In this document: in pieces, positions 8,585 to 50,221 of the stretch
Layout: the number at the start of each line of letters is the position of its first letter
Position numbering within the stretch: the first letter of the stretch is position 1
Origin: Colius striatus
Taxonomy: Eukaryota > Chordata > Aves > Coliiformes > Coliidae
Direction: 5' to 3'
NCBI RefSeq assembly: GCF_028858725.1
Contig: NC_084771.1
Coordinates: 10,878,915-10,942,914, forward strand
Length of the DNA: 64,000 nucleotides
The notes under the pieces: model-generated
The model's input: only the letters and a program-made list of their open reading frames with translations
Databases searched by the model: none
Told to the model about the DNA's origin: nothing
Program-made: the position numbers and the translations under genes

Positions 8585-8872
8585 GATGCAGGAGAGGAGC
8601 TGTGTCTGTGAGTGGTGTGTGCAGGAGAGGGCCTCTGTCTGTAGGATGTGTTTGCAGGAGAGGGGCTGTGTCTGGGGTGTGCTGTGGGTGTGTGTGCAGG
8701 AGAGGGGCTGTGCCTGGGGTGTGTGTGCAGGAAAGGGGCTGTGCCTGGGGTGTGTGTGCAGGAGAGGGGCTGTGTCTGTAGGATGTGTCTGCAGGAAAGG
8801 GGCTGTGCCTGGGGTGTGTGTGCAGGAGAGGGGCTGTGTCTGGGGTGTGTGCATGAGGGGCTGTGTTTGTCC
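8585..8872. repeat. 31-bp minisatellite
   Basis: About nine imperfect copies of a 31-bp unit built on TGTGTGTGCAGGAGAGGGGC followed by TGTGYCTGGGG. Because 31 is not a multiple of three, the array is open in several frames and yields repetitive cysteine/glycine peptides on paper. It begins about 300 bases after the RRAGB poly(A) signal. Confidence 0.9.
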
Positions 8873-15066: not shown

Positions 15067-17483
<2,417 letters not shown>

Positions 17484-26600: not shown

Positions 26601-26939
26601 TTCACAGAGCCGGGCTGGAGAGCACTGTGTCCTGCCTCGTACCCTCACCAGTTAAAGGTGTGGTGGTGGTATTGGTTGGGTTTGTTTGTATTTTTTCCCC
26701 AAGTTTTATCTCTTTTTCCCCTTCACTTAATCTGTTGATTTTTGATCTCTCCATTCCTCTCCCCTGGGAGGAAGAACTGTAAATAAGCAGGAGCCTCCTT
26801 GTCTCTCAAAATCAGTTTTCCTGCAGAATTCAGCTGTTTGTTGAAAAAGGGCATCTTCTCATGGCAAAAAAAAGCACCATTGCTTTGAAAAGCTAAACTA
26901 AACAACCCCCTTGTTTCAGCACAAGGAGTTCACCCTGGG

Positions 26940-27403
26940 AGAGGCTTTCCCTGCCGTGGGGTGTGCTGGCCCTTCCCCAGCCCCACGCCTGGGGGTCCTG
27001 CGCTCGGGGTGCCAGCGGCAGGCCCGTGCCCCTCTCTGCAGCAGCCTGCCCGCCGGTGAGGCCGCCCGCCAGGCTCCCGGAGCCTTTTATGTGCGAGTGG
27101 CCCGGTGGAGCTGCCGGTGGGGCTGTCGGCGGGAGCCTGATTGGTTCGGCACAGCCTCACCGTCGCTTCCAGGTTGGCGTTCCTCCTCCCGCACGCAGCC
27201 CAGGTAAAGCCTTCCCGCGACCCGGCACCTGGCCTCCCAGGATTAGCAACTCCCTCCGGCTCGCCTCTGCCTTCAGGGTTTTTTTTTACCCCCTCCCTTC
27301 CCCTGTCTTGATTATTTTTTTTCTCCCCACTCTTTTTTCTGTTTACATCTTCTTTTCCCCCCCAGCTCAGTTTGCCCCCGGGGGAGCCAGGGGCGCGGGA
27401 GGA
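26940..27403 (+). promoter_or_regulatory. KLF5L promoter and 5'UTR
   Basis: A CpG-containing GC-rich stretch upstream of the KLF5L ATG. It contains an inverted CCAAT box (CTGATTGGTTCGG at about 27138) and a TTTTAT element at 27085. A possible 5' exon ends at CAG|GTAAAG (27203). A pyrimidine-rich tract and TTTTCCCCCCCCAG acceptor at 27365 would make a 162-bp leader intron. The structure is inferred from motifs. Confidence 0.6.
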
Positions 27404-27568
27404 ATGAGCAGCGGGCTGCTGCTGCGCACCCCGCTCCCCGAGGACCCCTCGGCATTCACGCCCCTGAAGCCCGTCACCATGTCGGGGGAACCCACCGAGG
27501 ATGCCCCTGTCTTTGAGGACATCAAACCCCTCTCCAGGCCCCTGGAAAACCCTCCCGACCTGGCACAG
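27404..27568 (+). CDS. KLF5L: KLF5L coding exon 1
   Basis: 165 bases, 55 residues, from [16 protein letters not shown] to LENPPDLAQ, ending at CAG|gtaagg in phase 0. It contains the [10 protein letters not shown] segment corresponding to EPVFAQLKPV of KLF5. Confidence 0.9.
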
Positions 27569-30500
27569 GTAAGGTGGAGGCCGTGGCTGTGCCGCGGGGC
27601 AGCGGGACGGGGCCGTTGGTGCCCGCTCAGGTGGAGTTGAGCTCAGGTTGCCCGCTGCCAACGCCAGCGTGGAGTTTCACTGAGCTTTGTTTTTCTGCTC
27701 TTTGCTGGAACACCTCGGTGGCTGTGTGTGCTCGTGCTTCCCCCTCTGCTGCATTTTCTCTTGGGCGTGTTGGGTTTCATTTTTTTTTCCCTTCTCCTTT
27801 TTTTCCCCCCTCCTGCCTTTCTTCCAAACACCCCGTGGCCCGTCTGGGAGCAGAGCCTGGGTTCTGCTCGCTCAGTTCCTCCACCCTGGGGCCAGCAAAG
27901 GCGGGGGTGCCGTGGGGCTCCGCGCCGTCGCCGTCCCTCAGCGTGTGGCGGGCGACGGGATCTGTCTGTGGCTGTGTGACAGGGTGGGGAAACGGGAGCT
28001 TCTCTATTGTAGTTGGTTGTGTGTATGGTTTCTGCGCCAGCCCGGAGGGGAGGAATGCTCCTTGAGATTCCCCAGCGGCGTCCCTCCCGCGTGCGCCGCA
28101 GCTAAAGCCCTGGATACGTGGCTTTGGGGTGTTGCTGCCCGTGTGCCCCTCTCGCACGCCCACTCTGTCCTGGGCTATGGCAGAAGCCTGTCTGAGCCCT
28201 GCTGCCCACCCTGGGCAAAGGAGACAGGCTCCTCGCCGGTGTTTTGGCTGACGGGCCGCTCATCCCACCTCAGAGAGCTTTCAGCTGCTCTTCCTGGTGG
28301 GAAGGGGCTGAGCCAGGCCTGCCCCAAGCCCGCTGCCGTGGCTTCAGCCCCTTCTTTCCTGGGAGACTGGGGTGAGCTGGGGCTCAGGGTGCCCGGCAGT
28401 GCGGGTGGCTAATGATTAACCGGGCGCCCCACGTCCCCAGCGCCATTTTGATTGGGATGGGAGGGCGGCTCTGGCCCCTCACTCCTCACCCCGACTGCCG
28501 ATCCTCTGGGCCCTGCTGGCGGGGCATCCCCATGTCGGGTGGCTATGGTGTGGCACAGGGCAGGGCTCGGGGCTGTGCCTCTGCTGCTTCCCCCGTCCCA
28601 GCAGTGCAGATGTCAAAAGGGTCAGTTTTGGGGCCTTGTCCTTCAGAGGGAGCAGGGTCTCCATTGTTGTATTTCCATGTGACACCTTGGTGACCCGGCA
28701 CCCACGGTGGCCCTGAGCGGTGGTCACAGATGTTGGGGTCAAAATGGGGGCAGAGGGCCATGCAGCACCCTCCTCCTGCCCCTGTGGTGGTCCTGGCTCA
28801 GAGCTTTTCCTTGTAACCCCAGGGCAGCTACAACCCCTGCTCATTCACACCGGATTTGGGAGATGTTCTTGTTCTGGTAGTAGCTCTTCAGAAAGGTCTG
28901 GGTTATCTCTGGGCCAGTCCTTGGTAGGTAAGGGCAGCAGCTCCCTGTTTGGTCTGGGAGGAGGGTGAGGCTTGCTTTCTCTCCATGTTTGCAGCCCTGG
29001 CTGTCAGGTGGGATTAGGTAGCGGCACTATCCTTGCTACCCTTCAAAGGGAAGAGGGGTTTCTCATCCCATTTTGGTCCCTGGAGCAATGACACCCCACT
29101 ACTGGTTGCCCTGGGGTGGAGGCAGCCAAGGGTGGGGTGTAAAATAATGCCCTGTCCCTTATGTACAACGGTGTCCCTGGGAGGGAGGCTGGCGAGCTGC
29201 AGGGCTGGAGCTGAGCACGAGCCCACCCTTGCTCACTGGATCACCAGCTTAGCCCCCCACAGCTGCTTTGGGACTTTGCAAACCCACCCAGGGAGAAGTG
29301 TTTCTGGGTGGCAAACCCCTGACAGCCCAGGGCTGGACCCCACATCTCTGGGGAGGAGCCTTCCCCGTGTCTGTCCGCTGTCTCTTAGAATGCCAAAGGC
29401 TGTGGGGCTCGGAGAAGAGATGACAAAGAAGCTGCCCTAGTAGCTGGAGGGTGGAAAAGCTGGATGGCTGCACGTCTGGGAAAGCCTTTGCTCGGGAAGG
29501 TGTTTATCAGAGCAGTTTGACAAGACTTATGGAGAAGGCTGTGACCTGTCAGAGCTCTGGCTATCACCTGTGGGGCATTCCCTGCTGCTCCAGCTCTCCT
29601 CACTTCTGTCTGGCCCATTTCTGGCAAAGAAAGGAGCAAACTCGCAGCTAATCTCTTTATCTCGCTGGTTACAAAGGTTCCCCCCTCCCACCTCCTCAAA
29701 TCCCTTTTCAAACAAGGGTGGGAGCTGGGAGCTATTTTCCTGTAAAGATTTTATTCCAGTCAGGTGGAAATGGATCTTTTGTGGAGTTTATGGTCAGTTT
29801 TTCCCTGTTCTCGGCCTTTTCAGTCACCCAGCCCCAGCTCAGAAACCAAGCAAAAAGAGAAAAAGGGAGAGAAAAGGGCTTGAGAGAACTTTTCCTTTCT
29901 GGTTTGAGTCAGATCAGACAGAATTTTTCCCTTTAAATCTCAAGAGGCCTATGCTAGAAGGAAAGTGAAAAAATAAGTGAAACCAAGAGCAAAGCCTGTC
30001 CAGGGAAGCGTTTCAGAAGGGGAGGAGAGGGTCCCTTTGCCTGGCTGTCAGGTACCGCCGGGTGAGTGAGGGGACACTGGGGCTGGCCTGCTGCTCCCTC
30101 CTTGTTGTTATTTGCTCTTCGGGTCTGGGGAGCCAAAGCAGCTCCCAGGCACCTTCTGGGATCATCTGCTGCATGTCAGATGGGTGACTGTCCCTCTGGG
30201 CTGGGCTTGGCCTCTCTGAGGATGAACTACCAAGTCCGTTCAGCCACCCTGTGCCTCCTGAGCTTTCTGCCATGGTGTTCCTCGGGTGTAAGTGTGGTCC
30301 TGGGTGGTGCAAGCCCAGTCCCTGCCCTCCTGTGAGAGCTGCCCCTGGGCAGGGAGCTGTGGTGATGGAAAGGGAGATGGTGAGAACAGACCCAGGTCTC
30401 CACAATCCAGGAGCTGTTCCTAGAAGGAATGTCATCAGTGTGGAGGGAAAGGAGACGACACTTCCCCTGCACCCTGCCCAACGCGTGTGGGACAGGAGCT

Positions 30501-33500
30501 GGCTCCTCATGGGCTTCCCTGCAGTTGAGAAGAGCAGAGGGGCTGGTGAGGGGAGGTGGAAGGAGCAGCCTGTGCTCGTCTCCATGGCTGGGTTTGCTAC
30601 AATTAAGGTGGGGAGGAGGCTCTCAGGGATGTCATCCTGGCCACTGCCTCTCCTCAGGGATTCAAGGAAGGCAGCACCAGTCCCAGTGGCTGCACTGGCT
30701 GTGGATTCAGAGCTGCTGGCTACTGTTGGAGGGTCGTTTGGCTCTGCAGCACTGTTGAGTGAGGTCAGGACCTGGGAAGAGAGATGGACAAAACCTACAG
30801 CCTGTTCCCTGGTTTACCCCCCTGTCTACCTGTATCGGGAGCCCCAAGGGCAGTTGTGTGGAGACTGGTGGGCACCCAGTGAGGACAGAGGCTCTGCTGG
30901 GTGAGAAGGGAAGTCCTGGTGAGTGTGACTGAGGAGATAGCCCCAGGCTATCTCATTCTGCACTGCCTCTTTCCTTGGGTGTGCTATGCTGCTGCAAGGT
31001 GAGAAACAGTAGTGACAGTCTCCTGCTGTCCTCTAAGCCCAATTCCCACTCCAGAGGCAGTTCCTCACTCCTGTGCTTGGCACACCTCCCTTCTGCCCTG
31101 CCCAAGGGCTGGCTGGGGGGCTCCCAGAGGAAGAAAACAGCCCCAGCACCTCCCAGATTAGATGGTATCTAATGGTGATGTTCTCCAAGAGCTTTTCCTG
31201 TCACTTCAGATCCTCAGTACTGGAAATAGCATTTCCCAGGCCCTTTCAGTGGGGTGGATGTTGGTGCTGCAGTGTTCCTCTGACTGTGTTCTGGCAGGGA
31301 TTTTGCTTCTGGTATCACAGGAGAAGCTGGTCCAAAGCATTTTCAGCTTTCCAGGCAATGCAGGGCTGTTTCAGTCCTGCCCTGTCCCTGCAAGGACGTG
31401 TGTGCCATGTTCTGCATCTCCTTGGCACGGACGTGGCTGTGCTGGGGCGATGACTAGATGGTGGGTCTCTCTCAGTCCAGGGATGGGCTTTCCTGCTGCA
31501 TGGTGGCCCAGCATCTTGCAGAGCTTGGAACCAGGATGAGGAGCCTTGCTTATAGTTTGTCTGGGGGACAGGAAGGAATCCTGCTCCTCTATTTCTTACT
31601 AGAGCTGCAGAAGTGGGCAGCACGGCTGTCAAGGAGTGCGTTGTTTCCTTGGTCTGTCAGGAGTTGCATGCAGTGAATGAATTAAGCTCTTCTGCAGGGA
31701 AAGGAGAGGTGGTAGCTTTGGAGCCTGTAATGAGATGTTAACAGCCTGTTGTGGCTGGAGAGAGCAGAACCTGGGCATCTTTCTGCAGTTTAATGTCACT
31801 CCTTGAGTGCTCAGAGGGAACTGAAAATATTGTGTCTCTCCCGGGCTCCTCCTTGTGCTCAGCACGCTCAGGAGAAGGTCACACTGCTGAGTGTGGCCCC
31901 AGGTATGGGGACACCACAGACACAAGCTCAGTGGGTTTTCAAGTGGCAGTTTTCAGTCTGTGCCTGTGTTGAGGACAGGCCCTCAGCCTGCAGTGTTGTG
32001 GTGTGGAGGCACTTCCCTGCCCCTCTGCGCCGGACGTGGCTGGTGTGAGGACTCTGCTCAGGCTCTGCACCACCACTTGTAGGATGAGACATGGTTCACA
32101 GTGCTGGCCCTGTGCTGCTTCAGTCCTCACTCACCCACCCTCTGCTCCACCAGCTGAGCTCAGGCTTCTGCCAGCATCCCACAGGTACAAATGTGCAAAC
32201 AGCTGTGGAAGTGGAGTGGGCTGGTCTGGTCAGATGAGAGTTCAGTGACTTGCTCCCTTCTTTCTCTTCTGCTACTCAGTCCACATAATGTGCTTTTGTA
32301 GGTAGTGTGAGGTCATGGTTGTCTACTCCCTCTTGGGTGTCTGGGGTGATCTCCTCCCAGGGATGCTCCTGCCTTTGCAGAAGGGCTCAAAGCCATCCAT
32401 GCATTCTACAGAAGTGTGCAAAATTGATTTTCAAAGGGTGCTGGGAGCCTGGTCAGGCTTGAGGGGTATGCAGAAACAGATTGGTGACAGAGAGGTGTCA
32501 AGTTCAAGGCTGGGCAAGGAGGAATGGGCTCACCTGATCCCTCCTGGCACAAGTCAAGACGATGGGTTGGCTGCTGGTGTGGCTGAGCCCTGTGTGGCCT
32601 CTGGCTTAGAGGCATCTCAGGAGGGAGGGATCCTTTTGGGCTGTTTTGCTTTGTGATGAGCTAGAGCCTGATGCTTTCAGGACCAGCCCACAGATTTGCA
32701 AGTCTGATGGAGGTGTCTGTGAGGCCACAGGACACGAAGCTGGAGTCCTGGGAGTAGGGGGGAGTGGTGGCCCCACTGCGGGTCTCATCCTCTTGTGGGA
32801 GTGGGTCCAAAGTCAGTGGGGAGCTTGCTACTGCTCAGCAGGCCTGGGATAAAAGTGGTGCTCCTGGTGAGCCAGAGGTGGGGAAATTGGGGGGATCTCA
32901 GCCACAGTGTCTGTTTTAGTGCTGTTTCCCCGCCAATGGGCAGGTTTCCCCGGCTGCGTGCGCAAGCGCTGCTGGAAGCAGCCAAGGCGTAGGATGAAAC
33001 GGCCGAACTTTGAGCTTCCTGAAGCACAATGGCTTTGTCCTGGTGGTACAAAGGCTGATTGTTCTGCTTAGGGGAAGTTTGGCCCGGCAAGGTGGGGAGA
33101 GGGAGAAAGGGACAGTGCTAAGAGGGAAACAGCTTAGGGGTCTGCTGCTCCTCCTCCTGCATGGCCCTCGCTCCAATCCGTTTTACACTTGCTGGCATGG
33201 GAGGGGTTACAAATGAGTTAGAGAAGCACATTGTGGAGTTGTGTGGCTTTTTTTGGATGCTGGGAAGGCAGCTATTTAAGGGAGGAACACAGGGGATTAG
33301 GGCTCCATAACAAAAGCAACGGGTTTCCCTTTATCTGTCTTCCTGAGTGGTGTGTGGGAAGCAAACAGTCATCTGAAGTTACTCACGAAGGGCTCAGGTA
33401 ATGCATTGCTGGCCGGTGCATCATCAACTGTGAATTTTCCCCTCTCAAACCTGTTTGGTCAGCTACCTACGCTATTTTGTTCTCCTTCCCTGGTCCAGTG

Positions 33501-36500
33501 AGTTCTTTTATCTAACCCATCCACTGCAAATAATCACACTTACAACCGTCTTGTTAGCTGAGCCCCTTGATTAGAATATTTGCTTTTCTTGTGCTCCATT
33601 GGTGAATTACATGAGTCACAGGGTACAGCTGGTGTTTGGGGATTGGATAACTAATGTTTACAATTCAGATGTTCTCAGAACTTGAGCTAGCATGAAAACT
33701 CTGGAAAAAAAAAACCCCATGGGCTGTTTACCACATCAAAGAGGTTCAGCCCCTTCCAAGCTCAGGTTGAAACTCAAACAAAGAATCTTTCATGAAGTTC
33801 AGAAATGCTTGGAGAATGCTTTGAAAATTAGTGGCTTTTGATTTTCTCTTTTTTTATTTAATGCAATGGGGACCTTCAAGTTTCCACCAAGGGCAGGATT
33901 TGCAAGTAGTAAAATGCATGTCATGACCTTGCTCCTTGGAGCATTCCCAAGACGAGCAAGAGAAGAGAGTGGCAAGAAATTGCTCCCGGTATTGCTGCTC
34001 TGAAAACACAGGTACTTATCACTTGCAGGGGAAAAGAATATCATCCCTCTGTTATCATGTCTATCCCATCTAAGGCAATTTGTTTCCTGAATCTGAACCC
34101 ATCCTGGACAGGGTAGAGATATGTGGGTACCTACTCACCAGCCAGCCCAGCCCATCGTTTTAGTGCTGCCTGTACATCACTGTTTTCCATCTGGCTGCTC
34201 CTCCAGGATGGTTTAGGGAGCTGCACCCAGGGGCAGAGGAATGAAACTGAAAATCCTTCTCACCATGAACAGAAGGTTTGATGGTGCCCTCTGAGATGTG
34301 GAAATAACTCGAGTTTGTTGAACTGAATGGAAAAGCTGAGGTGTCTCCTCTCCCCGACTGATCATGGTTTAGAACGTAACGTTTTATCCTGAGTGACTGT
34401 CAATATCTGGTGTTTATGTTGTTTGTGCTTTTGGGAGAACTCAAAATCATTAGTGTGGCTGTTTGACATCACCCCTGGGTCACAACAAGTGTCACAGGGG
34501 CTGGAAAACCCCAGGCTCCAAAATGCTCTGGCTGGAGCTTCTCCAGGGCTTGGTGCCTTCTCCACTGAACTGTCAGTTGTCCATCATCAGCTGGTGCCAT
34601 AATCAGCTTCTCTTCATTAACAGCAACTGGCAATTCATTTCTACACAGGCAAAATGTGGAAAGAGAGGGTTTAAGGTGAAGGGAATGGATCTTGAAGAAA
34701 CTCTTTGAAGGTTTCTGCTCCCAGGCTAACAGAAGGACCCTCCTGGCAGCACAGACACTGGAAATACATCGGGTGGCATGCCATGGCAGAAGAGGCTTGA
34801 CTCTGGCAGTGTCTTCTTGGCCTTGTACTGTGCCAGGTGCTGTGCAAGCTCAGAGGAAAGAAGTTGGCCCAAAGACCTACTCTCTCAAGCCCAATATTTT
34901 CACCTGCCCTGGGGTTTGGTTTGCTTTGCTGACTGGTTTGCTGAGGAAGCTGAAGGGCCACAAGGTTGGTGGGACCTGCCATCCGCATGTGTAACCTGAG
35001 GTGTGGGGAGTACTGGGTTTGCCTTGTGCCTTGTGCTAGGAAGAATGGGCTTTGGGGCCTGTTTTATCACTTGCTGAATGCCAGGAGGACTTCACAAGCC
35101 CCAGCAAGCAGTGGATGACTCACTCTGCCTTTGTCAGACCGTGCCCTGGGAATCTGCTTCTTTTCTTCTGATCAGAGGAGGTGATGAGTGTGAGCTTTTA
35201 GATGGCTTGAGTGAGGCTGAGTGAATCCCCCCCCATAACCCTTCTGGGGAAGCTCCCTAAGAGCTCTAACAGCCTCTCCCATGTCACACTTGGTTCAAGA
35301 CCCCTGCCATAGATGTGTAACCAGAGGGGAGCTGGAAGGCTCAAGGACAACCCCAGTGTCCTATGTCCATGCAATAGTTAGAAACAGGTGGATAAATTTG
35401 TGCTGGGGTTGCACTTGGTTGTTCTGCAATCGGGGAAAGCACTGCAGAGCTACTGCAACATCAGCCTGGGACCCTCATCTGGACCTGTCTACGGCCAGGT
35501 GGGCTGCACGTGTTCAGTAAGGCCTGGAGATGGTGCAGCTGGTTCTCCAGCTCCTAGTGATTTTTCAGTCCATGGATGCCTTTATTCTTTTGAAAGGTTT
35601 CTGCTTGCTCTCTTAAAGCTTGCTGGAGCCTGGCTGCTCCCAACTGTTCCTCTTCCAGGCACTTGACCTTGGAGTTGGATTGAGGGTGTCTTTCCTGGTT
35701 TCTTTGGCCTCTGGGATTGCTGACTGTAGTGGCATGGTTTCTGTGATAAATAACCCAGGTAGATTGCCTTTGAGTGAGTCTTTATCAGTTGTCAGAGGAA
35801 AGGAATAGCAAACAGAGTCAGCAAGTCTGCTGGAAGTGTTGCTGCCTACTGGCTCAGCCAGAGGCCACCCAACCTCCCAGCTGCCCACATCTGCTTTGAG
35901 GGTGACTCTTTGGCCTCAAGGAAATTCCTTGTTTCTGAGAGGTGATAATTACCTTGGGTAGTTCAAACACAAGGGCACAAAAGAGCACCAGAATAACCCT
36001 CCAGAGCAGCATGTCTCAGCTCCTGGGCCATTCATGAGCTCCTGGCAGAAGCCTGGAGAAAGGATGTATCTTTGACCTGCCTCAGGAGCTGCTCTGCTGG
36101 AAAAGTGTGACAGCTCCACACTGGAAAGCTAGTGGGATAGATCACCTCTGGCAGCCTTCTCCATGGACTCCAGACAGCACTTGCACTGGGACTTCAGCTC
36201 AGGTGCCCACTTTCCAGGTGGCTAAAATGAAGATGACTCTTGCCCCACCGCATGTTTACAGACAGCTGAATGCTTTGAGGGCAGCACTAGTTTCTTGAAG
36301 TTGCTCCTAACTTCTTGGAGAGAGAGCAGGCAGAAGAGTCTGCCCAGGGCTTTCTGCAGCCCAGCACCCACCTACTTAAGCACAGAGTTCAGCTCTGCCA
36401 CCTGCAACGGTGCTTTGTTTCTTTCCAGCAAGTAAACATTTGGCCCTGTGTGTACTTGAAAGGAAGAGTCCTGGGGGTTTCTTTGCTAATCCCGTTTTGC

Positions 36501-39500
36501 AGAGAGTTCCAGAAGACTTGAGGAACAAACAGAAAATAACGTCGATCGAGGTCAATATCAAGACCAAATGATCAGGGAAACAAATATTTACTCAGGTCAA
36601 TATTTAACTAGGAGACAATAAATGCTGATATTGAACCAAATCTGTATATAAATATGCTCTATTTATAATGTGTGCCTTTAAAGGGCTACTGCCAGGTACT
36701 TGCCATGGGTTTTGATTGATGATTATCCTCCCCATTGTTTGCTGATTCCCTTGGAGGCTGGAGTTTCATGCAGGTGCATGTATGAGAAAGGCTGTACTGT
36801 GCAATCCCAGGGCCCAGACAACGGGTAGAACCATTGTGCCACGCACGCCTGTGCTCAGGGAGGGCTCCTCACCCCGAGGAGGGACACCCAGGCCCCTGAA
36901 ATGGGCATCCCACCAGCCCCCCAACCCTTGAATCCCCCCCGGGGATGGCTGTGAACAGGAGCCTGAGGCCCTGCTGGGAAGGGGGCAAGTGGGCTCAGTG
37001 CCCCCCATGTCACTGGGCAGGATGGGACGGCTGTGGCCAGACACAGTGCTTGAAGCTCATGAGTAGCATCACAGAATCCTTTCGTTTGGAAAAGACCTTT
37101 AAGATCTTCAAGTCCAACCATTAACCCAACACTGCCAGGGCTGCTGCTAAACCTTGTCCCAAAGCACTGAAGAAACCCCCTTCCCCCCCCTCCCTCCCCC
37201 GTGACCGCTCCCTCAGCCAACTTTACAAGCTGGTTGCCTGTTTAGCAAACATTGATTTCTCTCCCTGTTCTCAGCTGCTGCCCGTGTGGTGACAACATCT
37301 GATGTTTCTATGGCAGTTTGTTATTTATCAACTTCAGATTAGAAAGCATTTTATCATGGGAAAGACAGGTCCCTGCTCCTGCCTGGACAGCCCGGGGTGC
37401 CCTGTGCCCTGGCCACTGCTGGTGCTTGATTCCTGGCAGAATGGCACACTTGGCTCAAACACCCTTTTCTCTTTTTTTTTTTTCCCCTTGTGTCCTCCTA
37501 AGAAATGTTTGTCTTGGACTCTGTGTTTGTTGATCAATGTCCTGATAACACCTCACCCTCCCTTTGACAATACCTGAAGGAGGGCAAGAAGTTTCCAAGG
37601 CAGGAGGTTCCTACAGGGTTTATGAAAACTGGCAGATGGTGGAAGGGGAAGACTCAAGTCAGTGCCCATTAGTCACAGGTGAATCCGCTCTGGGGGAAGC
37701 AGGGCTTCATTGTCTGCTTTCTTCATGGAGCAACTGGCTTGTGGAGCTGGGTTCTTTACAGAATCCATCTCTCTCAGAGGCTGCTGGTATTACCTTTCCT
37801 TCTGGGGAATTTCAGTGGCCAGGTCCCAGGTTTGGATGTGCTGCTGTGGAGTGTAACATGGTCCTGCTGGGCCAGTGACACAAATTGGTGTCTAATGGCC
37901 TTGTCTGGGGTGGGCAAAGTGCTCATTCTGACCCCTTTCCCTGATTGTCTTTTCTTGTCTTTCTTTTCTGTGGCAAGTTGAAAAAAAAAAACCCTTCTCT
38001 GTGTTCAGAAATAGATATTATGACTCTGAGGGGAAAATACCCCAGGAGTTTGGTGCTTTTACAGTATGAAAAGCTATCCTTGAATTCCCCTTGGACAAAC
38101 CAAAGATCCCAGTGTGAACTCCTCTTTGCTCACTTTGCCTGAGCTGCTCTCCTGTGACAGCTGCTGGAGCTCCTGTCGATGCTGCTGGTGCAGTCTGGGG
38201 CAGGGCTGCCTCCAGACCTTTATCTCACCCTCATCTCTGGTGATTGCAATGATGGCATCACTAATGACTGCAGGGCAAACTGAGACACCAAAGCCACTAA
38301 ATAACCAGTGGCTTTTCAGCTCAAAGGCCCTGGAGGCTTGCTTCATCAAGTCATGTTGCAGTACTGCGATGAACTTGCAGTATTGAGATGAACTGAGCTC
38401 CATGGCGACGTGGTGCATTCAGTTCTTCTCAAAAAGGGAAGAAAAGGGTTAATTCCCTGCCCGTGGCTGGCAGACAGTGAGAAAGGGATAATTGTTCCAG
38501 GTCATGGCTCTCTCCTGTGTCCTCAGCTGCCCTCTCCAGAGTGGCCTGGGGCAGGGCTGCAGCCTGCTGCCAGCACCCTTCGGGGCTGGCCACGGCAGAG
38601 GATCAGTGGCCAAAGAGCTTCCTCCTGCAGGGCACGCCTTGCTTCCTTTGTAACCCTGCTGCTTACCATGGCAGGTCTTGAAAGCAGACAGCTGACAGAG
38701 CAGAGGAGTTTGCTGGTCTCCTGGTTGACCCAAAATAAGTGATCCAGCAGCTGGACTTGTGGGCTTAAGCATTAGAATTATAGAATGGTGGGGGTTGGAA
38801 GGGCCCTGCAGAGCTGCTCCAGCCCAAGGCCCTGCTAAAGCAGGTTCCCCTCTCTCAGGGGGCACAGGAACGTGTCCAGGTGGGTTTGGAAACCTCCTGA
38901 GAAGGAGCCTCCACACCCTCCCTGGGCAGCCTGGGCCAGGGCTCCCTCACCTCAGCACCAAAGGCGTTTCTCTTCCTTTTTCAGCAGAACTGTCTGTGTT
39001 CCAGCTGATGTACATTGCCCCTTGTCCTGCCACTGGCCACCGCAGAAAAAAGTGTTGTCCCCTCCTGCTCACATCCACCCTTTAGGGACATGGAAGTGTT
39101 GATGAGGTGCCATTACCTGTGAAGGGGCTTGTCTGGAACATGTAGGTGCTTCTGAAGCTGTTTCTTCCAGTTGATGAGGATGATGGGACACAGCTTTCAA
39201 TCCCCAAACCCTTGTAGCTCTGACCTGGCTGATTTCATGTTTAAGTTTTTTGTCATGCTTCCAGGTATGAAGACCACGTGGAGACCAGTGGCTCTCCCGT
39301 GATGAAAGCTCTCAGCACTCCCAGCCTGTTGGCACTGTCATCTATTATGACCTTGCAAGGAATATCCTCCACTTAGATGCGACTCCCAGAATATGAACAC
39401 CCTAAGAGTGGGAAAACTGAGTCCATGGAGTTAGTTTTGCTGGTTTTCTGTGTGAGAGAGGATAGCTTGAGCTGTTTTCTAGTCCTTGCTGGTCAGACTG

Positions 39501-42500
39501 ACCAGCCTGGCAATGTGTGTGTGACTCCAAAGTGGGAGGGTGAGAAAAGCCTTCACATCAGTCTTGTTGAACTGGAGAAATGGTTGAGGTTGTGATGGCT
39601 GTGGAGGAGAAAATGGACACAGTGGGAGCGAGCAGGCAGCAGCAGCTGCAGGGTGTGAAAGGAGAATGGTGCATAGGCTGATGCTGAACACACAGAGGCA
39701 GATCAATACTGTTTCAAGAACTGGAGATAACTCCCCCCTTCATTGGTGCAGCTCTGCCCTCGTGCTGCCTACCAACCCGTGGTAGGCAACTGCATCCCAC
39801 CCCCATCTCGTGGGTGACACTGTAGGGATCTGCCCGCTGACAGGGTGGGCAGCTCAGGGTCCAGGGGCTGGGGAGGGGGCTGGGGAAGAGGGAGGTGAAG
39901 CCCTCCATGGCTGGGGGTGGTTGGGGAGGCCTATGGGGGATGGAGAAGCTGCTCCACTAACCCATCCCTGTCTGCCCCACAGCTGCACCCCATGAGGATG
40001 GAACAGCGGATGCCACCCCTCATTCTCGAGGTGAAGTGCTTTCCTCATCCCTCCCTCTGCATGTTTCTGGCCCCACTGGTGAGAGGTACCACTAAAGCCC
40101 CACAGAGATGGAACTTGGGCTGCCCCTCACCCACATCCACTGACAGGGACATGGAGGTGTTCCTCCTGCCCAGGCTGCCTCTGTCTGAGCTACACAGGCC
40201 CCGGGTGGTCTACAGTCTCCTTTGTGGCTCCTGTGTGTCCACTAAGTGGATCCCCATGACTGAAAGGAGCAGTGAGAGACAGACACCTGTATTGGGACAC
40301 TTGAGTTGGGTCCCACCTCAATGTGTCAGCAGCTGGTCACCCCAGTTGTGCCGACCAGTCGAGGGGATGTGTTGGGATGGAGCATTGGCTGGAGGGGCTT
40401 AGGACAATGGCTTGGTGTTAGGTGTCAGCACCGGCTCTGGTACTTGCTGGGCATTTCTGAGCTATGAACAAGCAAAGCTGAGCCTTGTGGAGGCTGTGTA
40501 AGGGTCTGTGGTGCAGTCAATCTGGATTCCAGCAGAGTGGGACACTCATTGTTCTTTCCCACACAGCCCAGTGGGGCTGTAGCCTCAGACAGGGCTGGTA
40601 GCCTCTCCTGTCTGGTGAAAGCCCAGTGCTTCTGCTCTGCTGACCAGCTACCCCTTAATGCACCCTTTCCCCAGGCCCCCAGCGCTGCTCGGGAGCAGCA
40701 GTGGATTTATCAGGCTTTAATGGAATGCCAAGGAAAAGACTTTTCTTTGCAGGTAGAGGTGGTTATGGGAGAAAAGGAGTCTGGGAGACATTAAACAGGG
40801 GGACTCTGGCTGAGAATTCAGGTTTTGGATCCAAAATGAGGGCTCTCCAGGCCTTTGTACATTTAATATATCTGTCTGGTCACCTGCTGCATAAGGACTC
40901 CCTGGAGTTAGAGGTTGAGACTTTCCCTTGGGAACTGAAGGTGAGAAAGTTAAATGCTAGAGATAAGGGAAGTGTAGAAGTAAAAAAGATCCAACACCTT
41001 CCCCCTGCCCCCACTCCTGGCAAGTGGGTCGTTTCATTGCTCAGGTATGTGTGGCATTTGGAGCCGCTGGTACTGCCTAGAGCGAGCTGGCTCCTGAGGG
41101 GAGCAGCACGGTGCCAGTGAGCGCAGAGGGAAGGGGCTGCAGGCTTCAGCTCCAAAGCCTTGATGTGGTTCTCCCTTGCGTAGGAGCCCAAACTTGGACA
41201 CTGCAAGGGGTAGCAGAGAAGAAGTTGGGGTTTTGGACCCATGAGGACTGAGTTGATGGTCTCTGATTCTCTTCCCTGCTGTTGTCTCAGCTTTGGGGTA
41301 TTCCTGAGCAAGCGTTTCCTCACTGGAGCATGGATGTGACAGCACGATGGCTCCGAGATCAGCCAACACTCAGCCTTCTTTGAGGAGGCCAGGGACTTCT
41401 CAGGGCGATGGGGATTTATAGCACAGGGCACACACACCCCCCCAGCCCCCAGTGCAGTGAGCACAGAGTAGCACCCAGTGCCAGTGCAGCTGCTGGGAGC
41501 TGCCAGCCGTGCGGCAGGAGAGGGTGTGCTTGTGGCACGCAGCCGTGGCTGGGTGGCAGCCAGCCTGCCCGTGCCATGCCAGGCTGGCTTGCAGAGCTGC
41601 ACAGGCTGTTTGGGTTCGCTGGAAGGTGACAGGTTTCGCTGGAAAGGGCGAGGAAGCCGCCTGGGTCCCAGCCAGCTTTGTGGAGAGCGGTGCAGTTGCG
41701 GGAGGGATGACTTTGGCCCGTTGCACTCCAGTGACATAGTTCAGAGCTGTAAAAGCCTCGGCTCAAGCGTGCAGGGTGTGGGGTGAGATCAGCTCGCTTT
41801 CCTGAAGTGCTCTGTGGGTTCTGCCAGGGAAACCCAGTGGTTTTGCCAGCTCCTCTACATATGAATGAGTCTATGAGGGCTTTGCAATGAGCCTGACACA
41901 TGGATAACCACATAATTAAAGGCTGTAGCTTTATAGAAGAGCATTAGTGCTGGTATCTTTAACCACAGAGAGCAGAACTTGAGTCATCAAACGCCAGGGG
42001 ATGAATTTCCTAGCAGATTGCTCCATCAGGTTGCTGAAGGATTGGGCCTGGATCCAGTGGGATGCAGCACCAGGAGTGAACCAGGAGGGGAAGAAACTTG
42101 GCACGCAGTGACTGAGCTCCAGGCCCTGTTAGCTCAGAGGACCCAGGCTTGTAAAAACAGAACCCAAACTAAACCAAAGGTTAGGTGAAGGCTGAGTCAC
42201 TTTACCAAGACAGTAGTAATATCCCTGGCAGATTCCATTTTAGGCTCACAGTCCACTGAATTAGTGTGAGCACCGCTTAGATTTCCAGGGCTAGAGCTCA
42301 AATTATTCTTAATCAGTTCAAAGATATCGTCCTAGAATATTCTCAGTCAGAGATATCACCCTTGAGTAAGATGCAATACATCTCAGGCTGTTGTGCTTTA
42401 AGGAGACCAGAGTCAGCATGTCTGAGGTGGGCTGCAGATCCAGCATGCCCAAAGCCTGAGGCAGACTGGAGCAGGAGTTCTGATTTCACCTCATTCCTCC

Positions 42501-45500
42501 TGTTTAAAATTCACTTTCTTTTTATGACCGAAGCTTTGTATCTAAACCTTGGCACTTCTCAGGCCCTGTTTCCCTCATAACTGCATCCTCTGCCCATTAT
42601 CAGTGCAGACAGGTAGGAGGGGAGTGGGACAAAGGACAGTGATTCACTTCTGAGAAGTCTGTGGCTGAGTCAGAGATGAGCTAAATCACCTCAGCTGAGA
42701 CTCCTGGGCCCTCTCACTGCTCCATTTCCTGCCAGCTTAAGTTCTGGATGACTGTCTGACACCCACCACCAGCGTGTCCAGGTCGTTCCTCACAAGCTCT
42801 CCTGTCTGTGTTTTGCTGTAGGCACGGTCTGAAATGGACAAGTACCTTTCAAACGAGATGCCCCCCATCCCAATGATCCCAGACAAGAAGTACCGCCGGG
42901 AGAGTGCCTCGGTGGTGGACGAGTTCTTCTCCACAGAGAAGTCTCCTTCCGCTCCCTACAGCGTCAACATCAACGTCATCCTGCCCGACACCACGCACCT
43001 GCGCACCGGCCTCTACCGGCCCCCCAAGCCCCTGACACCCTTCCCACAGATCAAAACAGAGCCGGGCACCAGCTTCGCCCAGCCCTGCTCCTCTGCCTCC
43101 GGCTCCACGCAGACCCTGCCCGACTTCACCAGCGTCTTCAGCATGCCCCAGTCCGTGGCAGTGAACAACATCTTCATCAAGCAGGAGGTGCCCTCGGAGA
43201 TCCCGCTGCCCGCCAACCCTCCGCAGCTGTACCAGCTGCCGCTGGGCAGCAGCAGCGCCGAGCTTCCCCCGCTGACGGCCTCCTCCAGCAGCACCACGGC
43301 CATCAGCAGCCTCGGCGCCCACAACACTGTCTCCAGCGTGGTCCACAGAGCCGTCCAGCCGGCAGGGCCGGTGAAGCAGTACCCACATGTCTCCCAGGGA
43401 CAGGGAAACTTCAGCATCTCAGGGCAGTTCTACCCTGCTCCAGGGATGAACCTGCCCCCTTCGCCCCCCAACTCGCAGCCAGGCAGCCCGGAAAATCAGC
43501 CTGAGCTCATCAACACCATCTCTCCCCCACCATCCTATGAAGCCACTTTTGGACTGAAGTTGGTCCAGTCATCCCAGGTCCCCCCAGGCCCCAACGGCCT
43601 TGGGACCCTCTCCCAAGGGCACGTTGTCATGCAGCCTCCCAAGTACAACAGGCGCAACAACCCCGAGCTGGAGAAAAGGAGGATCCACCACTGTGATTAC
43701 CCAGGTGAGCTCATGGTGGAGGCACCAGCTTGGCTTTGGAGGGGCTGAGGGCTGCGTTGGGCCTCTGCAGGAGTTGCAGCTGAAATCACTTTGCAAGATG
43801 CAGGGAGCTGTGGAGCTGGGTGGAGAGGCCCAGGGAAATGGGGGTCCTACCACTGCCAAGGGAGCAGAAGGGGCCCAGCCTGCCTGTGCTGGCTGATGCC
43901 TTTTTATCTCCCTTTCCTCTTCTGACTCTGGCAAAAGTAAACGTGGTTCTGACAGGCAGAGAGCTCCTGCCACACACAGGGGTGTTTCTCTTGCCTTAGC
44001 TGCCCGTTTCACTTGGCTCCTGCTCGACCCAGAGCAGCCAAGTGGTCTCTGTGGGTGAAATGTGAGCTTCCTACCCCTGACCTTTCCTTTCCCCGTCTCC
44101 TATAAGAAAAGGCAAACCATCAAGTAATTTCCATGAGCGGTCTTTACAGTCTCTCTCTGTAGCCCCAGTTCTCTTCCTCTGTGAGCTGAATCTGAGTTGC
44201 ATCCTTCAGTGGCTTCATGTGCTGCTTTAGGATGATGTGGAAAGGCATTTTGAGGTGGTGATTATCCAAACGTGTCCATCCAAAGCCCCAGGTTGCCTTG
44301 GCAGGAGAAGATCTTGCAGGGTTTCCTGCAGTGTGGACAGACAGCTTGTGGAACCTACAGCTGCAGACCCTCATTCATGCTGCATGGGAGAGAAGCAGTT
44401 GTGTCCCTAGAGAGAAACCCCTGTGAGGGTGACAGAGCAGTGGCACAGGCTGCCCAGAGGGGTTGTGGAGTCTCCTTCCTTGGAGGTCTTCAAGACCCGC
44501 CTGGACATGTTCCTATGTGACCTGATCTAGGTGACCCTGCTTCTGCAGGGGGGTTGGACTAGATGATCTCTAAAGGTCCCTTCCAACCCCTACCATTCTA
44601 TGATTCTATGAAACCAGTGTAAGAGCCTGGAAATCACCAGTCCTTGTGCTGGGACACACACCTTCTGCTTCCTGGGCCAGGCCCCAGTCATAGAGCTGTT
44701 GGGGATTAGCAAACAGTTTTCCTGTGGGGGTGTGTGAACTGAGGAAAGTCATTTCCTAACTGCCTCCTGCAAGATTTATGTGCCCTTCTCGTGGCACAAG
44801 AGAGGCTGTAGTACTGTCTAGCCCAGGTCCTGTCTCCAGCAGTGACCCAAGGAAGTACATAAGAATAGGGCACGTTTAGAGAGATCTCTCTGTGCTGAGA
44901 CCTTCCCACCCTCTGGCAACCTGTAGATCAGGGATTTCCTGAGCCAGAAGCTGCACCCATGTTCTTGTGGTTAACACCTTCTGCTGATTTTTTTTTTACC
45001 TTCTGCTGGTCACAGGGGAAGATAGATTCAGGGTGTAAGTGGAGCACTGCTCTGAGACAAACCCCTCTGCTCTTCTCAGAGCAAGAGCCTCATCCTGATG
45101 GCTGCAGAGCTCGCCTGTGCTCGGCAGGGTTTTAACCTGCATCAAAAACCCAACCCTGCAACAACCTGCACTGAATAAACACCATGTGGCTGGATAGTGT
45201 GTACGTGCAGGGACAGGGGAGGGCTTCTCCTAATCCTCCACACTGAGGTTCAGCTGGAGGTGAAACCAGTCAGGATGGGTGGCAGGGGCAGCAAGTCTGT
45301 GGGAGGGAGCAGCAGGAGGCATGCCCAGCTGACACCAGTGACAGGAGACAGGCCCAGCTCATACCAGTGACAGGAGGCATGCCCAGGTCACACCGGTGAC
45401 AGGAGACAGGCCCAGTTCTCACCAGTGTCTGGGACAACAGGGGAGTCCTGTTTGCAAAGCCCTGATCCAAGTTTCCAGGTGGTGACCCCAGCACTTTTTT

Positions 45501-48500
45501 CTCATGGGGAAATGAAGCTGAGCTCAGCTATGCCTTGTGCTCCTCCGTGCTGCTACCTCTGGCTTTGGGATCTGCTCTGGCTGCTTGTGCCTGTGCCCAG
45601 CCCAGAGGCAGTCCTTGGACACATGCATTCTCATCTCTCTCCCAAATGTGAGGGGCCTCTGAGGCTTCAGAGCATTAGAAACAAAACTGAATTGGGTCAC
45701 CAACCCTTATCCTTCCTACCACAAGGAGGGGAAAGGCAGACAGCTGCTCCTGCAGCTCCTGAACAGGGCAAGACAGAGAGCTGATCTGCAAGAGGTTTCT
45801 TTAGGCTAAGTGGAAACACTGGAACAGAAAATGTGACTAGATTGCTTATGCAGGTCATGAAAATGCAAATCTGTATTGTAATATATTTGTCAAAACACAA
45901 TGAAGCAAGGCCATAAAGGCAGCATGAGCTTCCCTAAGCTTTGTCGAACAGAAATGAGGAACCAGCAGTGATTCATTTTGAGATGTCTGTTGTTAAAACT
46001 TCTCCCAAAGTCCCAGTATTTCTGCCAAGAGCCTTTCTTTGATTAAACCTGTTGTTGCTGATCTTCTGAAAAAACCCTTCCCACTGGCTTTGTTCTGGAT
46101 CCTGAAAGCCAAGCTGTGGCTCCACAGCATACCTGGTGTTTCCTGCTTCCTGGAATGGCTTCTTCCATATTTGCTGGGGCTATTACAAGGTCCATCTTCC
46201 CTCCAGCCCTGCAGTCGTGACATGGGTTATGTCTGGAATCCAGAAAGACAAATGCCAGCACAAAGCCATCAGCTAATGCTGGAGAATTTAATGGTTTCAT
46301 CCTGCCTCGAAGGAAGGCTGAGGAAAGGGAGATTTGAAAGTCAGTGCCTGGCTCTTTCACTGACTCTCCCCTTCAGTTCCCAACACAATGCCCATGGGTG
46401 TCAGGATTGTGTGGCAAAAGATGGATGTTGTACAGGTCTGTCTTGGGGCGCAAATGCTCTTTAGTTACTGCTGAAACTGCCCAGATACAGCCAGGCTTAT
46501 TTGCATAGTTACCCCAAGTCCTTTTCAGGCCTTCTCTATCCCTAACCCCAAATAGAAACGGTCTCCATTTGTTTGAGCCCCTTTCTCACAGGGAAGTTGC
46601 CTCTTTTCTGTTTTTTCCTCAGGTTGCTCAAAAGTTTATACCAAGAGCTCCCACTTGAAGGCCCATCAGAGGACTCACACAGGTAAGGACTCAGCTTTGG
46701 CAGGAGGCCGCGCTGCTGACACTGGGCCCGTCAGTGAAGGCCATAATAGCCTTAGTGTAGGGAGGTTACTGGGGTAGGGAGCACAGCTGGGTCTGTTGAT
46801 GATGACATTCAAAACCAGTTCAATGGCTACACTGCTTTATAGTGACTGGACACTGCTGTGTGTACATTCCAAACCCACCTGGACGAGTTCCTGTGTGACC
46901 CACTCTGGGTGGTCCTGCTCTGGCAGGGAGATTGGACTGGATGAGCTTTCAAGGTCTCTTCCTGTCCTGGACATTCTGTGATTCTGTGATACTCACTTGC
47001 CTTCTGGAAGGTTGCTCTGGAATTTAGGAGAGCTCTTGGAGGTTCTTGAGTCAATGGGTTGGGAGGCAGAAATGCCCCCAAAACCTGTCGCTGAGTTCTT
47101 CCTTTGAGATCTCTCAAATCTAAGCTGGCTCTGATCCTGCTTAGCCTACAGAAAGATTGTGTAAAGGCCACGTGGTGCACAGATCTGATCTCTGAGGAGA
47201 CAAGGGCTGTCTCTCTGACATCAAGCACCCTTGTAAGAGAGGAAGGAACCTTTCATATCTCCCCATGTACCAGCCACGCAGACCACTCACCCCCAGAGCT
47301 TGTCCCCTTAGCAGCTGCCAGTGGTGTGTGGCTGGAGCTGCTGAAGCCAGGGCGTATGGAAGGTCTGTGCCCTCAGCCTGAGGGCAAAGGTGCCGTGGGC
47401 TGCCCTTGCTTGTGTAAACGGGGTCACTAGCACAGAGCAGCTCCCACCACCGCCAGCTTTGCCGGGCTAAACCTAGCTCAGTGGCACTTGTGCATTCAAG
47501 CACAGGCCTTCTCATTACGGCATTTATTATACCTGAAACTTTATCAGATCCCCAGGTAGTCCAGGAACCATCAGTGCCCTCATAAATCTCTTTTATAGAA
47601 GGGCTGATCTTTACCGAAAGCAATTAAGCGGGCCCAGAGTTCACTTTTCTTTTTTATTAACAACGAACAAAACCCATCCTGAGGCTGGGAATCGGCTCTT
47701 GCACTTGGCTCCGTTCCGTTTTCCTCTTATCAGACCTTCGAACAAACCAGCAAAGGATTTTGCTTTGTGCATGAGGCACAATATTTCTTTGGCTTGCTCT
47801 GGGTAGGAGCAGGCTGGAGAACAACACGGAAGGGGTGGAAGAAAGGAACAGGAAGGACATTGTCCCAGCGCTGAGGGCTGGGTGGTGATAAGCGTTTGTC
47901 ACAACAACAGTCTGTATTCAGGGCTACGGCAGAATGAAGTATCTCTTTTCCTGTTCCGCTCCGAGCTGAGACGGGCACTGTCCCAGAGATGTATCCAGGC
48001 AAACTTGCGTGGGTTTTGAACCCAATAAAATGTAGTAATTTTTCCAGGTTTCCCAGTAATTGAGCTGGAAAAGCAAAGTCTGTTTGCCTCCTGTTTCACT
48101 TGCAGTAAGAAGGGAGGGCAGAGAGGCGAGGGAGGACGTGACTCGAGGAGTCGAGAAAGCTAGTGGCGTGTGAGGCGGGTAAAAAGAAGGGAATCCAAAC
48201 CAGAGACACATCTGCAGGCAGGCTCAGGGGGTCTGTGACTAACATTTGAAGTCTCGTGTTCTGCTTTCGAGGCCTCGGCCTCACAGAGCCCGTCCCAGCC
48301 CCTCCAGCTCCCTGTGCTGCGCCAGCCCCATCGCTGGAAGGGTTAACGCCGCCCTTTCTCTCTGTTCCTCACCTGATGGCAGCCGGGCCCAGAAGTAGAT
48401 GATCTCTAAGATCTTTTCTTGTGGTTTGCCCGTTGCTATGAGCTGGGTCGTATTCATCTCCTGGAGACACCATTCATTTCCTGGGTGCCATTGTGAGATT

Positions 48501-50221
48501 AAATATATAACCCAGTGGCTGCCGAGCCGCTTCCCAGGGGCTGGGAACACCACTCGGGGCCCTTTGTTTGAGCTTGTCCTGCCGTGCTGTCCTGGGAGAT
48601 GGAGCCAGCTCCTGGGACAATGGAAAGCATTTTGTTTCTACCCTGGAGTTCAACCTGTTATTGTTTGAAACTAAAGGGCCTTGGTGGGGTTGACCCAGCC
48701 AGGTCACCTGCCTGGGACGATGTCTGTGGCTGCGCAACGTAAATCCCAACGCCTTTGTCTTGGCTCGTTAATGCCACCCCCGAGATGCCCTAAAACATCC
48801 AGAGTGCTGCTTGTAAACTGACTTTCTCTGTTTACCTGAGCCATAAAAAATTCCCCTCTCTCCTCCCTGTGGTGCAGAGTCCAGGGGCTTTTTGAGGAGC
48901 GGGCCGTGGGCTTGGTGCCCTGTCAGTGCTTTCCCATCCCATCTGCTGCGTGCACACCACCATAGATCTCACTGGGGCTGAATGTTTTCCAGTTTCCCAG
49001 CCTCAATCCACAGCTCAGGGGCTGCAGGGAGGAAAGGCCCTTCTCGGGGAGACGTGTCAGAGCAGGCCACACATGCCTGTGCACGCACGCTGCGTGGCTA
49101 CGTGCCTCCGTGCTGCTGCGGTGCGCTCGGCAATTGGCCGATGCAAAGGGTAAATATTTGAGGTCGAGGAAGTCAGCACATTCCCTGAACTCTGCCTGCT
49201 TGTTCAGGCTGTTAAGAGCGAGGGCTAATATTTGAGAGCACCGCACCCATGCGCGGCAGAGGGCCGCAGCCAGGCCTTCGGCTCTCCCACCGCCACACGC
49301 AGGCACCTGGAAGTGGGCACCGTGGGCTTTTCCAGCCCAGTTCCCAGCTGGCTGAGAGGCTGCACAGTGTTAATTGAGTTCAGTTTGAGAAGAGGTGTGT
49401 ATGGGCAGGAGGAGGGGGAGAGGACAGAGGCATTACGTCACCCAACAGGCTGTGAAGGAAACAAGGAGTTTCATGTTTTGCAGGGCAGAGAGTGTCAGAT
49501 GGTGGTTTCAGAGATGAGAGGCTTTGAGGGAGATTTATCCAGTATAGCCCCCTGCTTCCTCCTGATGCTCCCACTTGTCTGAGCAGCAACACTTCCCATA
49601 GGAATTTTTGGCTTTTTAGTTAAGAGAAAACCAAAAAGAACTCAGGATTTTTTTTTTCTTAGCCAGAAATGCTTCAAAATGCATCAGGAACTCAAACAGC
49701 ACTAGAAACCAAACTGAGGGAGGCACGTGGACAAGACCTGGCTATTGCAGCTCAGCGCTCTCACGTTCCTTCAGTGGCTGCTGACTGTGTAGCCACATCG
49801 GTGCCATAAAGCATCAGTGTGACCACAAGCCCTGTTCTGCTGTGGGACAGAAGGACAGAAGCCCTGTTCTGCCTTCCAAGGAGGATGGGCACTTCTGAGA
49901 GGCTGGGATGGGTGCTTGTGAGCCTGGGGTGGGTATTTAGGAGTCCAGGTTGGTGTTTAGGAGCCTGGGGCGGGTGCTTGGGAGCCCAGGCATGTGTGTG
50001 GCAGGGCTGTGCTCTGCCTCTGACCCGTGGCTCTTCCCTCAGGTGAGAAGCCCTACAAGTGCACGTGGGAAGGCTGCGACTGGCGCTTCGCCCGCTCGGA
50101 CGAGCTGACCCGGCACTATCGGAAGCACACGGGCGCCAAACCCTTCAAGTGCCTGGCCTGCGGCCGCTGCTTCTCCCGCTCTGACCATCTGGCTCTCCAC
50201 ATGAAGCGGCACCAGAACTAG
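27404..50221 (+). CDS. KLF5L: KLF5-like Krueppel-like transcription factor
   Basis: Exons 27404-27568, 42822-43704, 46623-46682 and 50043-50221 join in phase to a complete 428-residue protein (human KLF5 is 457). Residues 34-45 ([12 protein letters not shown]) match the KLF5 N-terminal activation segment. [17 protein letters not shown] and [15 protein letters not shown] match the KLF5 core. Sumoylation motifs lie at K133 (IKTE) and K175 (IKQE), a [12 protein letters not shown] degron-like motif at 267-278, and a PPPSY PY-motif at 290-294. Three C2H2 fingers occupy 346-368, 376-398 and 406-426, ending MKRHQN exactly as KLF5 does. The exon layout is also that of KLF5. Divergence outside the fingers is too great for KLF5 itself, and the locus (next to KLF8) differs. 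It is expected to be a nuclear GC-box activator. The start at 27404 has G at -3; an N-terminally extended form is possible. Confidence 0.92.
37068..37170 (-). mobile_element. CR1 LINE 3'-end fragment (antisense)
   Basis: It begins ATCACAGAATCCTTTCGTTT and continues GGAAAAGACCTTTAAGATC, TTCAAGTCCAACCATTAACC and ACACTGCCAGG. This is the reverse complement of a typical avian CR1 tail. Confidence 0.85.
38774..39090 (-). mobile_element. CR1 LINE 3'-end fragment (antisense)
   Basis: The reverse complement of the CR1 type seen at 9.4 and 59.6 kb. It starts ATTATAGAATGGTGGGGGTT, includes CACCCTCCCTGGGCAGCCTG, and ends at ACATCCACCCTTTAGGGAC. Confidence 0.9.
42822..43704 (+). CDS. KLF5L: KLF5L coding exon 2
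   Basis: The large 883-bp exon, encoding residues 56-349 plus one base. The acceptor is tttgctgtag and the donor CCAG|gtgagc. It begins [11 protein letters not shown] and ends [10 protein letters not shown], splitting the first zinc finger after its first cysteine as in KLF5. Between are proline/serine-rich activation sequences and both sumoylation motifs. Confidence 0.95.
44421..44612 (+). mobile_element. CR1 LINE 3'-end fragment
   Basis: A textbook avian CR1 tail: GGCACAGGCTGCCCAGAGGG, GGAGTCTCCTTCCTTGGAGG, GGACTAGATGATCTCTAAAG and a terminal CCATTCTATGATTCTATGA with two octamer repeats. Confidence 0.95.
45313..45428. repeat. 30-bp minisatellite
   Basis: About four copies of a 30-bp unit of the form CATGCCCAGCTGACACCAGT followed by GACAGGAG. 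Units alternate between CATGCCCAG and CAGGCCCAG, suggesting a 60-bp higher-order unit. Confidence 0.85.
46623..46682 (+). CDS. KLF5L: KLF5L coding exon 3 (rest of finger 1)
   Basis: A 60-bp exon encoding [20 protein letters not shown]. The acceptor is tttcctcag and the donor gtaagg. A 60-bp exon at this place is a hallmark of the KLF gene structure. Confidence 0.95.
46864..46992 (+). mobile_element. CR1 LINE 3'-end fragment
   Basis: A short sense tail: CCAAACCCACCTGGACGAGT, GAGATTGGACTGGATGAGC and a terminal CATTCTGTGATTCTGTGA. Confidence 0.85.
49901..49990. repeat. 21-bp minisatellite
   Basis: About four copies of a 21-bp unit GCCTGGGGTGGGTATTTAGG(A), ending 52 bases before the last KLF5L exon. 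The unit length is a multiple of three, so the + strand frame reads repetitively (LGWV-type). Confidence 0.8.
50043..50221 (+). CDS. KLF5L: KLF5L terminal coding exon (fingers 2 and 3)
   Basis: 179 bases encoding the GEKPYK linker, finger 2 ([16 protein letters not shown]) and finger 3 ([17 protein letters not shown]), ending MKRHQN with TAG at 50219-50221. Finger 3 has an extra cysteine (GRC) where KLF5 has NRS. Confidence 0.95.

Follow-up and report, generated by a model that had tools for sequence, protein, structure and literature searches.

The window analyzed here is a 64,000-nucleotide stretch of the Colius striatus genome, spanning bases 10,878,915-10,942,914 of the 23.1-Mb contig that we call C15. 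Along its plus strand lie, in order, the end of RRAGB, KLF8, and a four-exon gene of KLF5 type that we designate KLF5L. The gene upstream of KLF8 is presumably RRAGB, as judged from peptides of the human protein. The features of the window are as follows (position 1 is the first nucleotide of the window).

3142..7844, plus strand: last coding exons of the presumed RRAGB (peptides at 3142-3217, 5369, 6421, and 7764-7818; stop codon at 7842-7844)
15091..17483, plus strand: KLF8, from the first Met in the exon carrying EPVDLSLNK to the stop codon, drawn from open frames and finger exons; part of the gene, with a frame break within
26751..28500, no strand assigned: CpG island over KLF5L exon 1, a probable promoter, from base composition
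27404..27568, plus strand: KLF5L coding exon 1, 55 residues; donor phase 0
42822..43704, plus strand: KLF5L coding exon 2, with the KYRR block, IKTEP, IKQE, PPSPPNS, PPPSY, and the start of finger 1; donor phase 1
46623..46682, plus strand: KLF5L coding exon 3, 60 bases, the remainder of finger 1
50043..50221, plus strand: KLF5L coding exon 4, fingers 2 and 3 and the stop codon

When joined, the four KLF5L exons form a 1,287-base frame that encodes 428 residues plus a stop, running from MSSGLLL to HMKRHQN with no inner stop. All three introns begin with GT and end with AG. Exon 1 is preceded by an in-frame stop at 26894 and ends at the donor GTAAGG; exon 2 lies between the acceptor CTGTAG and the donor GTGAGC, and exon 3 between CTCAG and GTAAGG. 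An earlier note on this DNA had described a full 428-residue, four-exon gene of KLF5 type ending in MKRHQN, and the intact frame, the introns, and the three fingers bear this out. The CpG island has a GC content of 0.61-0.66 and a CpG observed/expected ratio of 0.51-0.69 (six overlapping 500-base windows); upstream of it, the ratio is 0.12-0.15 (three windows).

The N-terminal part of the predicted protein holds the KYRR block, two IKxE motifs, PPSPPNS, and PPPSY, and is followed by three KLF fingers. These are spaced CX4CX12HX3H-X7-CX4CX12HX3H-X7-CX2CX12HX3H, the C-terminal three-finger pattern quoted for the KLF/SP family in the accessible text of a 2013 survey (PMC3820594). The Pfam zf-C2H2 model matches three stretches, with a score of 53.6 bits, and the best of the 45 listed relatives of solved structure is human KLF5 (2EBT, E 8.1e-57). 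Outside the fingers the protein is expected to be disordered. Exon 2 was also compared with a collection of prokaryote genomes as a check for contaminant vertebrate DNA, which gave 34 pattern matches, none of them confirmed.

The KLF8 stop codon ends at 17483, and the 9,920 bases from there to the KLF5L start codon agree with the spacing of about 10 kb estimated earlier. The KLF8 finger exons lie at 16,438 and 17,319. In the exon that carries EPVDLSLNK (15214-15344), which we take to be a repressor motif of the CtBP-binding type, the frame switches near a C-rich repeat (TRF row 15262-15286), such that the VDLS segment and the segment after it stand in different reading frames; either a misassembly of the C run or a genuine frame break would account for this. 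Two tandem repeats were also observed, one of about 31 bases and about eight copies between RRAGB and KLF8 (8587-8851), the other of 29 bases and four copies within KLF5L intron 2 (45313-45427). Rfam, at gathering thresholds, gave no match in the whole window.

KLF5L compared with the ordinary KLF5

Our genome searches covered 1.21 Gb in 191 contigs. The ordinary KLF5, a protein of 452 residues, is encoded at C1:41,576,282-41,593,311 (plus strand). The same genome therefore carries KLF5 on C1 and KLF5L on C15, in keeping with the earlier claim that a second KLF5 copy was retained. With KLF5 exon 2 as the query against the 1.21 Gb, the KLF5 and KLF5L loci were the only matches at E <= 0.001, and neither C4, near KLF3, nor C11 gave a match (17 of 17 candidates scored). 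The exon 2 sequences of the two genes are 47% identical (E 2.8e-60), a match that, together with the Pfam zf-C2H2 score, shows that the likeness is not due to chance.

Both genes have four coding exons, with three introns at identical positions and in phases 0, 1, and 1. One of these introns lies inside finger 1, where all three of the other genes that we looked at (KLF8, KLF12, and KLF3) have none; C1 KLF5 has a 60-base exon at the place equivalent to KLF5L exon 3. Exon 4 is 90% identical to that of KLF5 over 60 residues. On both its N-terminal exon (KYRR..SASVVD.FF, IKTEP, IKQE, and PPPSY) and its gene structure (intron phases and the finger 1 intron), KLF5L has the characters of the KLF5 subfamily. 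The IKTEP and IKQE motifs, the PPSPP stretch, PPPSY, and the C-terminal MKRHQN are common to KLF5L and KLF5, the latter represented by the human fingers of 2EBT and the bird gene on C1, and the recognition segments in all three KLF5L fingers, including RSDHLALH, are those of KLF5.

Overall, 226 of 406 residues are identical between KLF5L and C1 KLF5 (219 of 406 when three sequences are aligned), such that 44-46% of the aligned residues differ, depending on the alignment, whereas the fingers have 82 of 90 residues in common. Exon 1 encodes 55 residues in KLF5L, without a poly-Q/poly-G stretch, as opposed to 83 in KLF5, and finger 3 reads KCLACGRCF in KLF5L but QCAVCNRSF in KLF5. KLF8, KLF12, and KLF3 likewise have KLF fingers, with 70-73 of 88 residues in common with KLF5L; unlike KLF5L, however, they have no exon 2 of KLF5 type and their finger 1 is not split by an intron. 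KLF8 further differs from KLF5L, as described above, in carrying the EPVDLSLNK motif.

In a genome search with the fingers, 98 of 1,110 candidates were scored, and a subset of the loci was examined in detail. Among the scored candidates, matches on C11 had 60% identity or lower. By our reading, four of the loci examined (L034, L035, L036, and L040) are SP genes and three (L037-L039) are other KLFs. Finger matches of SP type occurred with similar scores, as parallel pairs, at C39:19885436-19905427 and C40:4918221-4942356; these are perhaps copies of one gene on the two sex chromosomes.

A gene block repeated on several chromosomes

Like KLF8, KLF12 adjoins a gene of KLF5 type. The earlier note had proposed that the KLF8 locus mirrors the KLF5-KLF12 pair, and the adjacency is indeed kept; however, KLF12 and KLF5 are convergent and 212 kb apart on C1, whereas KLF8 and KLF5L stand head to tail, 9.9 kb apart, on C15. 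The mirroring is thus imperfect, and one small inversion is needed to relate the two arrangements. In both of two surveys of chicken KLF genes, as far as their text was available, the KLF8 region is collinear with the KLF5/KLF12 regions (PMC10177326, PMC11394431), which fits the presence of KLF5L beside KLF8.

A scan of the flanks, extending 100 kb past each end of the window, revealed a gene of KCTD8/12/16 type on C15, 74 kb past KLF5L. Given this gene and the human maps, KCTD relatives were expected near KLF12 and KLF3. The KCTD8/12/16 H1 domain is found at four places in the genome, on C15, C1, C4, and C11, with distances of 1.23 Mb from KLF12 on C1 and 2.18 Mb from KLF3 on C4; KCTD-family genes therefore lie near all three KLF3/8/12 loci. 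Simple arithmetic puts the chance of two such placements at about 2e-4, for a reach of 2.2 Mb that was chosen after the distances had been seen. A tree of the four KCTD sequences separates C1 and C15 from C4 and C11 (support 97/96), and the two alternative pairings have AU p values of 0.0149 and 0.0135.

A further gene lies between KLF5L and the C15 KCTD gene, and its conserved C-terminal exon is placed as follows.

91741-92415 in window coordinates, past the window end (C15:10,970,655-10,971,230), minus strand: conserved C-terminal exon of the further gene (..PNKKRQWQSELLKKYQL)

This gene has no Pfam match. Elsewhere in the genome, its relatives are found on C11 and C4 only, 76 kb and 106 kb, respectively, from the local KCTD genes, and the genome search found no copy on C1. 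The block is patchy, with the further family missing from C1, and KLF5 exon 2 from C4 and C11. With these gaps, the KLF3/8/12, KCTD8/12/16, and further families recur together over C1, C4, C11, and C15. The repetition of several families together on up to four chromosomes is the hallmark of the genome duplications that occurred early in vertebrate history, and by this pattern KLF5 and KLF5L would be a pair from the C1/C15 split. KLF3 and KLF8, which are on separate contigs in the present genome, share one chromosome in chicken (PMC10177326); in the available text of both surveys they are the only KLF genes placed on chicken chromosome 4 (PMC10177326, PMC11394431).

Age of the split and alternative origins

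KLF5 and KLF5L are identical at 80 of 88 finger residues, as are KLF8 and KLF12, and KLF3 is identical to each of KLF8 and KLF12 at 81 of 88; finger divergence between KLF5 and KLF5L thus equals that between KLF8 and KLF12. In the same region bird and human KLF5 are identical at 87 of 88 residues. The full-length comparison used a provisional human KLF5 sequence, of which the finger part was compared with 2EBT; identity to this sequence is 86% for bird KLF5 (383/445) and 55% for KLF5L (226/411).

These comparisons bear on the idea that KLF5L is a fast-evolving KLF5 duplicate specific to birds or sauropsids that came to lie beside KLF8 by chance. A copy confined to birds would be expected to favor bird states, yet at the 46 sites that differ between bird KLF5 and the provisional human sequence and at which KLF5L has a residue, KLF5L has the bird state at 9, the human state at 15, and neither at 22, so there is no excess of bird states and a recent bird copy is unlikely. 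The fingers allow either arrangement: in a short tree of 88 columns and nine rows (LG+G4, SP row dropped), a trio of KLF5L, bird KLF5, and human KLF5 costs 1.76 lnL units (AU p 0.30), and a pairing of KLF5L with bird KLF5 that leaves out human KLF5 is not rejected either (AU p 0.26). An earlier tree of 10 rows, built under a mixture model with the SP row L035, had a very long SP branch and no starred branch. Against a lineage-specific duplicate stands the coincidence that it would require, namely arrival beside KLF8, a relative of KLF12, within a block that shares KCTD genes. The name klf5l is, moreover, in use for genes of shark and salmon, according to the available parts of the papers cited below, with orthology presumed from the name. 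We therefore consider such an origin improbable.

Slightly less probable still is that KLF5L is a decaying or silent copy whose frame happens to remain open. The gene is known here from genomic sequence alone, and it is unlisted in the accessible text of the two chicken KLF surveys, as a pseudogene might be. Against this stand 428 open codons, intact splice sites, and the CpG island at exon 1. After an old split, the fingers of KLF5 and KLF5L differ by 0.065 nonsynonymous as against 0.66 synonymous substitutions per site, which indicates that those of the pair are under strong purifying selection; in the part encoded by exon 2, the values are 0.34 and 0.72, near saturation. A retrocopy is ruled out because KLF5L has introns.

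Descent by tandem duplication from KLF8 or another KLF3/8/12 gene, followed by convergence on KLF5, would suit the nearness of KLF8 on the same strand but is scarcely credible, since the finger tree rejects a KLF5L-KLF8 pairing (24.95 lnL units lower, AU p 0.0015), KLF5L exon 2 matches KLF5 only within the genome, and the finger 1 intron does not occur in KLF3/8/12.

Judged from its sequence, KLF5L is a real, intact, and old KLF5 paralogue, unlisted in the available text of both chicken surveys, and is most likely a survivor of the whole-genome duplications that took place early in vertebrate evolution. The sequences themselves show the gene structure, homology, common introns, block synteny, conserved motifs, and constraint on the fingers. 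The block duplication of a KLF5-KLF12/8 pair that the earlier note proposed is independently supported by the introns, the finger divergence, and the KCTD loci and tree.

Probable role of KLF5L and its place in the KLF family

We conclude that KLF5L is very probably a second, intact KLF5 gene, derived from an ancestral block that was copied in the genome duplications of the early vertebrates, and that it most likely works like KLF5. The block would have held the ancestors of KLF5, KLF3/8/12, and KCTD8/12/16. Copies would then have been kept as KLF5 near KLF12 on C1 and as KLF5L beside KLF8 on C15, with none found near KLF3 on C4, and a small inversion is assumed between the KLF5-KLF12 and KLF8-KLF5L arrangements.

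KLF5L would act in the nucleus, with its three C2H2 fingers binding to GC/CACCC boxes, as is expected from recognition segments that are those of KLF5. By analogy with KLF5 biology, it is most likely a transcriptional activator at these boxes, with an N-terminal part that would recruit co-activators. In KLF5, the sites corresponding to IKxE, PPSPP, and PPPSY serve in SUMO attachment, phosphodegron control, and binding of WW-domain proteins (WWP1 and YAP), respectively; KLF5L may likewise be controlled through its conserved SUMO-type IKxE sites, its phosphodegron-like PPSPPxS stretch, and its PPPSY WW-domain ligand. It may also compete for sites with the CtBP-binding repressors KLF3/8/12, and an activator that shares sites with these proteins would be the simplest reading of the gene.

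Human KLF8 is not known to have a KLF5 copy beside it. The accessible text of the 2013 survey gives 17 human KLF genes and a predicted KLF18, and holds that zebrafish KLF5a and KLF5b probably arose through the fish genome duplication (PMC3820594). The chicken surveys, in the parts available, count 13 KLF genes (PMC10177326) and name 14, KLF1-KLF13 and KLF15, with 15 given in the methods section (PMC11394431); a second KLF5 gene is unlisted in these parts of both. A partial literature search found no description of a KLF5 paralogue in birds, and the term "KLF5-like" in the accessible text of PMC9428588 is the name of a JASPAR matrix. That the gene is little described, as the earlier note put it, is therefore fair for birds, although the name klf5l is already in use for genes of salmon and zebra shark. 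In the excerpts available, the salmon gene comes up in a discussion of epithelial gene markers in skin (PMC10627282), and zebra shark klf5l is one of nine genes with promoters overlapping male-biased methylation sites (PMC13047888). The likeness of these genes to KLF5L is known from the name used in those papers, and they are presumed, and expected, to be its orthologues.

KLF5L represents a second surviving KLF5 lineage in the history of the family. KLF5, a regulator of cell growth, governs epithelial renewal, pluripotency, and the development of fat and muscle. If chicken has KLF5L, the gene has been omitted from studies of expression and knockdown in which KLF5 is taken to be a single gene. 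More tentatively, and a little short of an even expectation, a separately controlled second KLF5 may be retained in birds, and probably in the majority of jawed vertebrates other than mammals, at a distance of 10 kb from KLF8, a presumed repressor, forming a linked activator/repressor pair that acts on the same CACCC sites. If this is true, the loss of KLF5L would have made mammalian KLF5 the sole bearer of duties divided in other vertebrates, and the phenotypes of mouse KLF5 would not be directly transferable to birds or fish.
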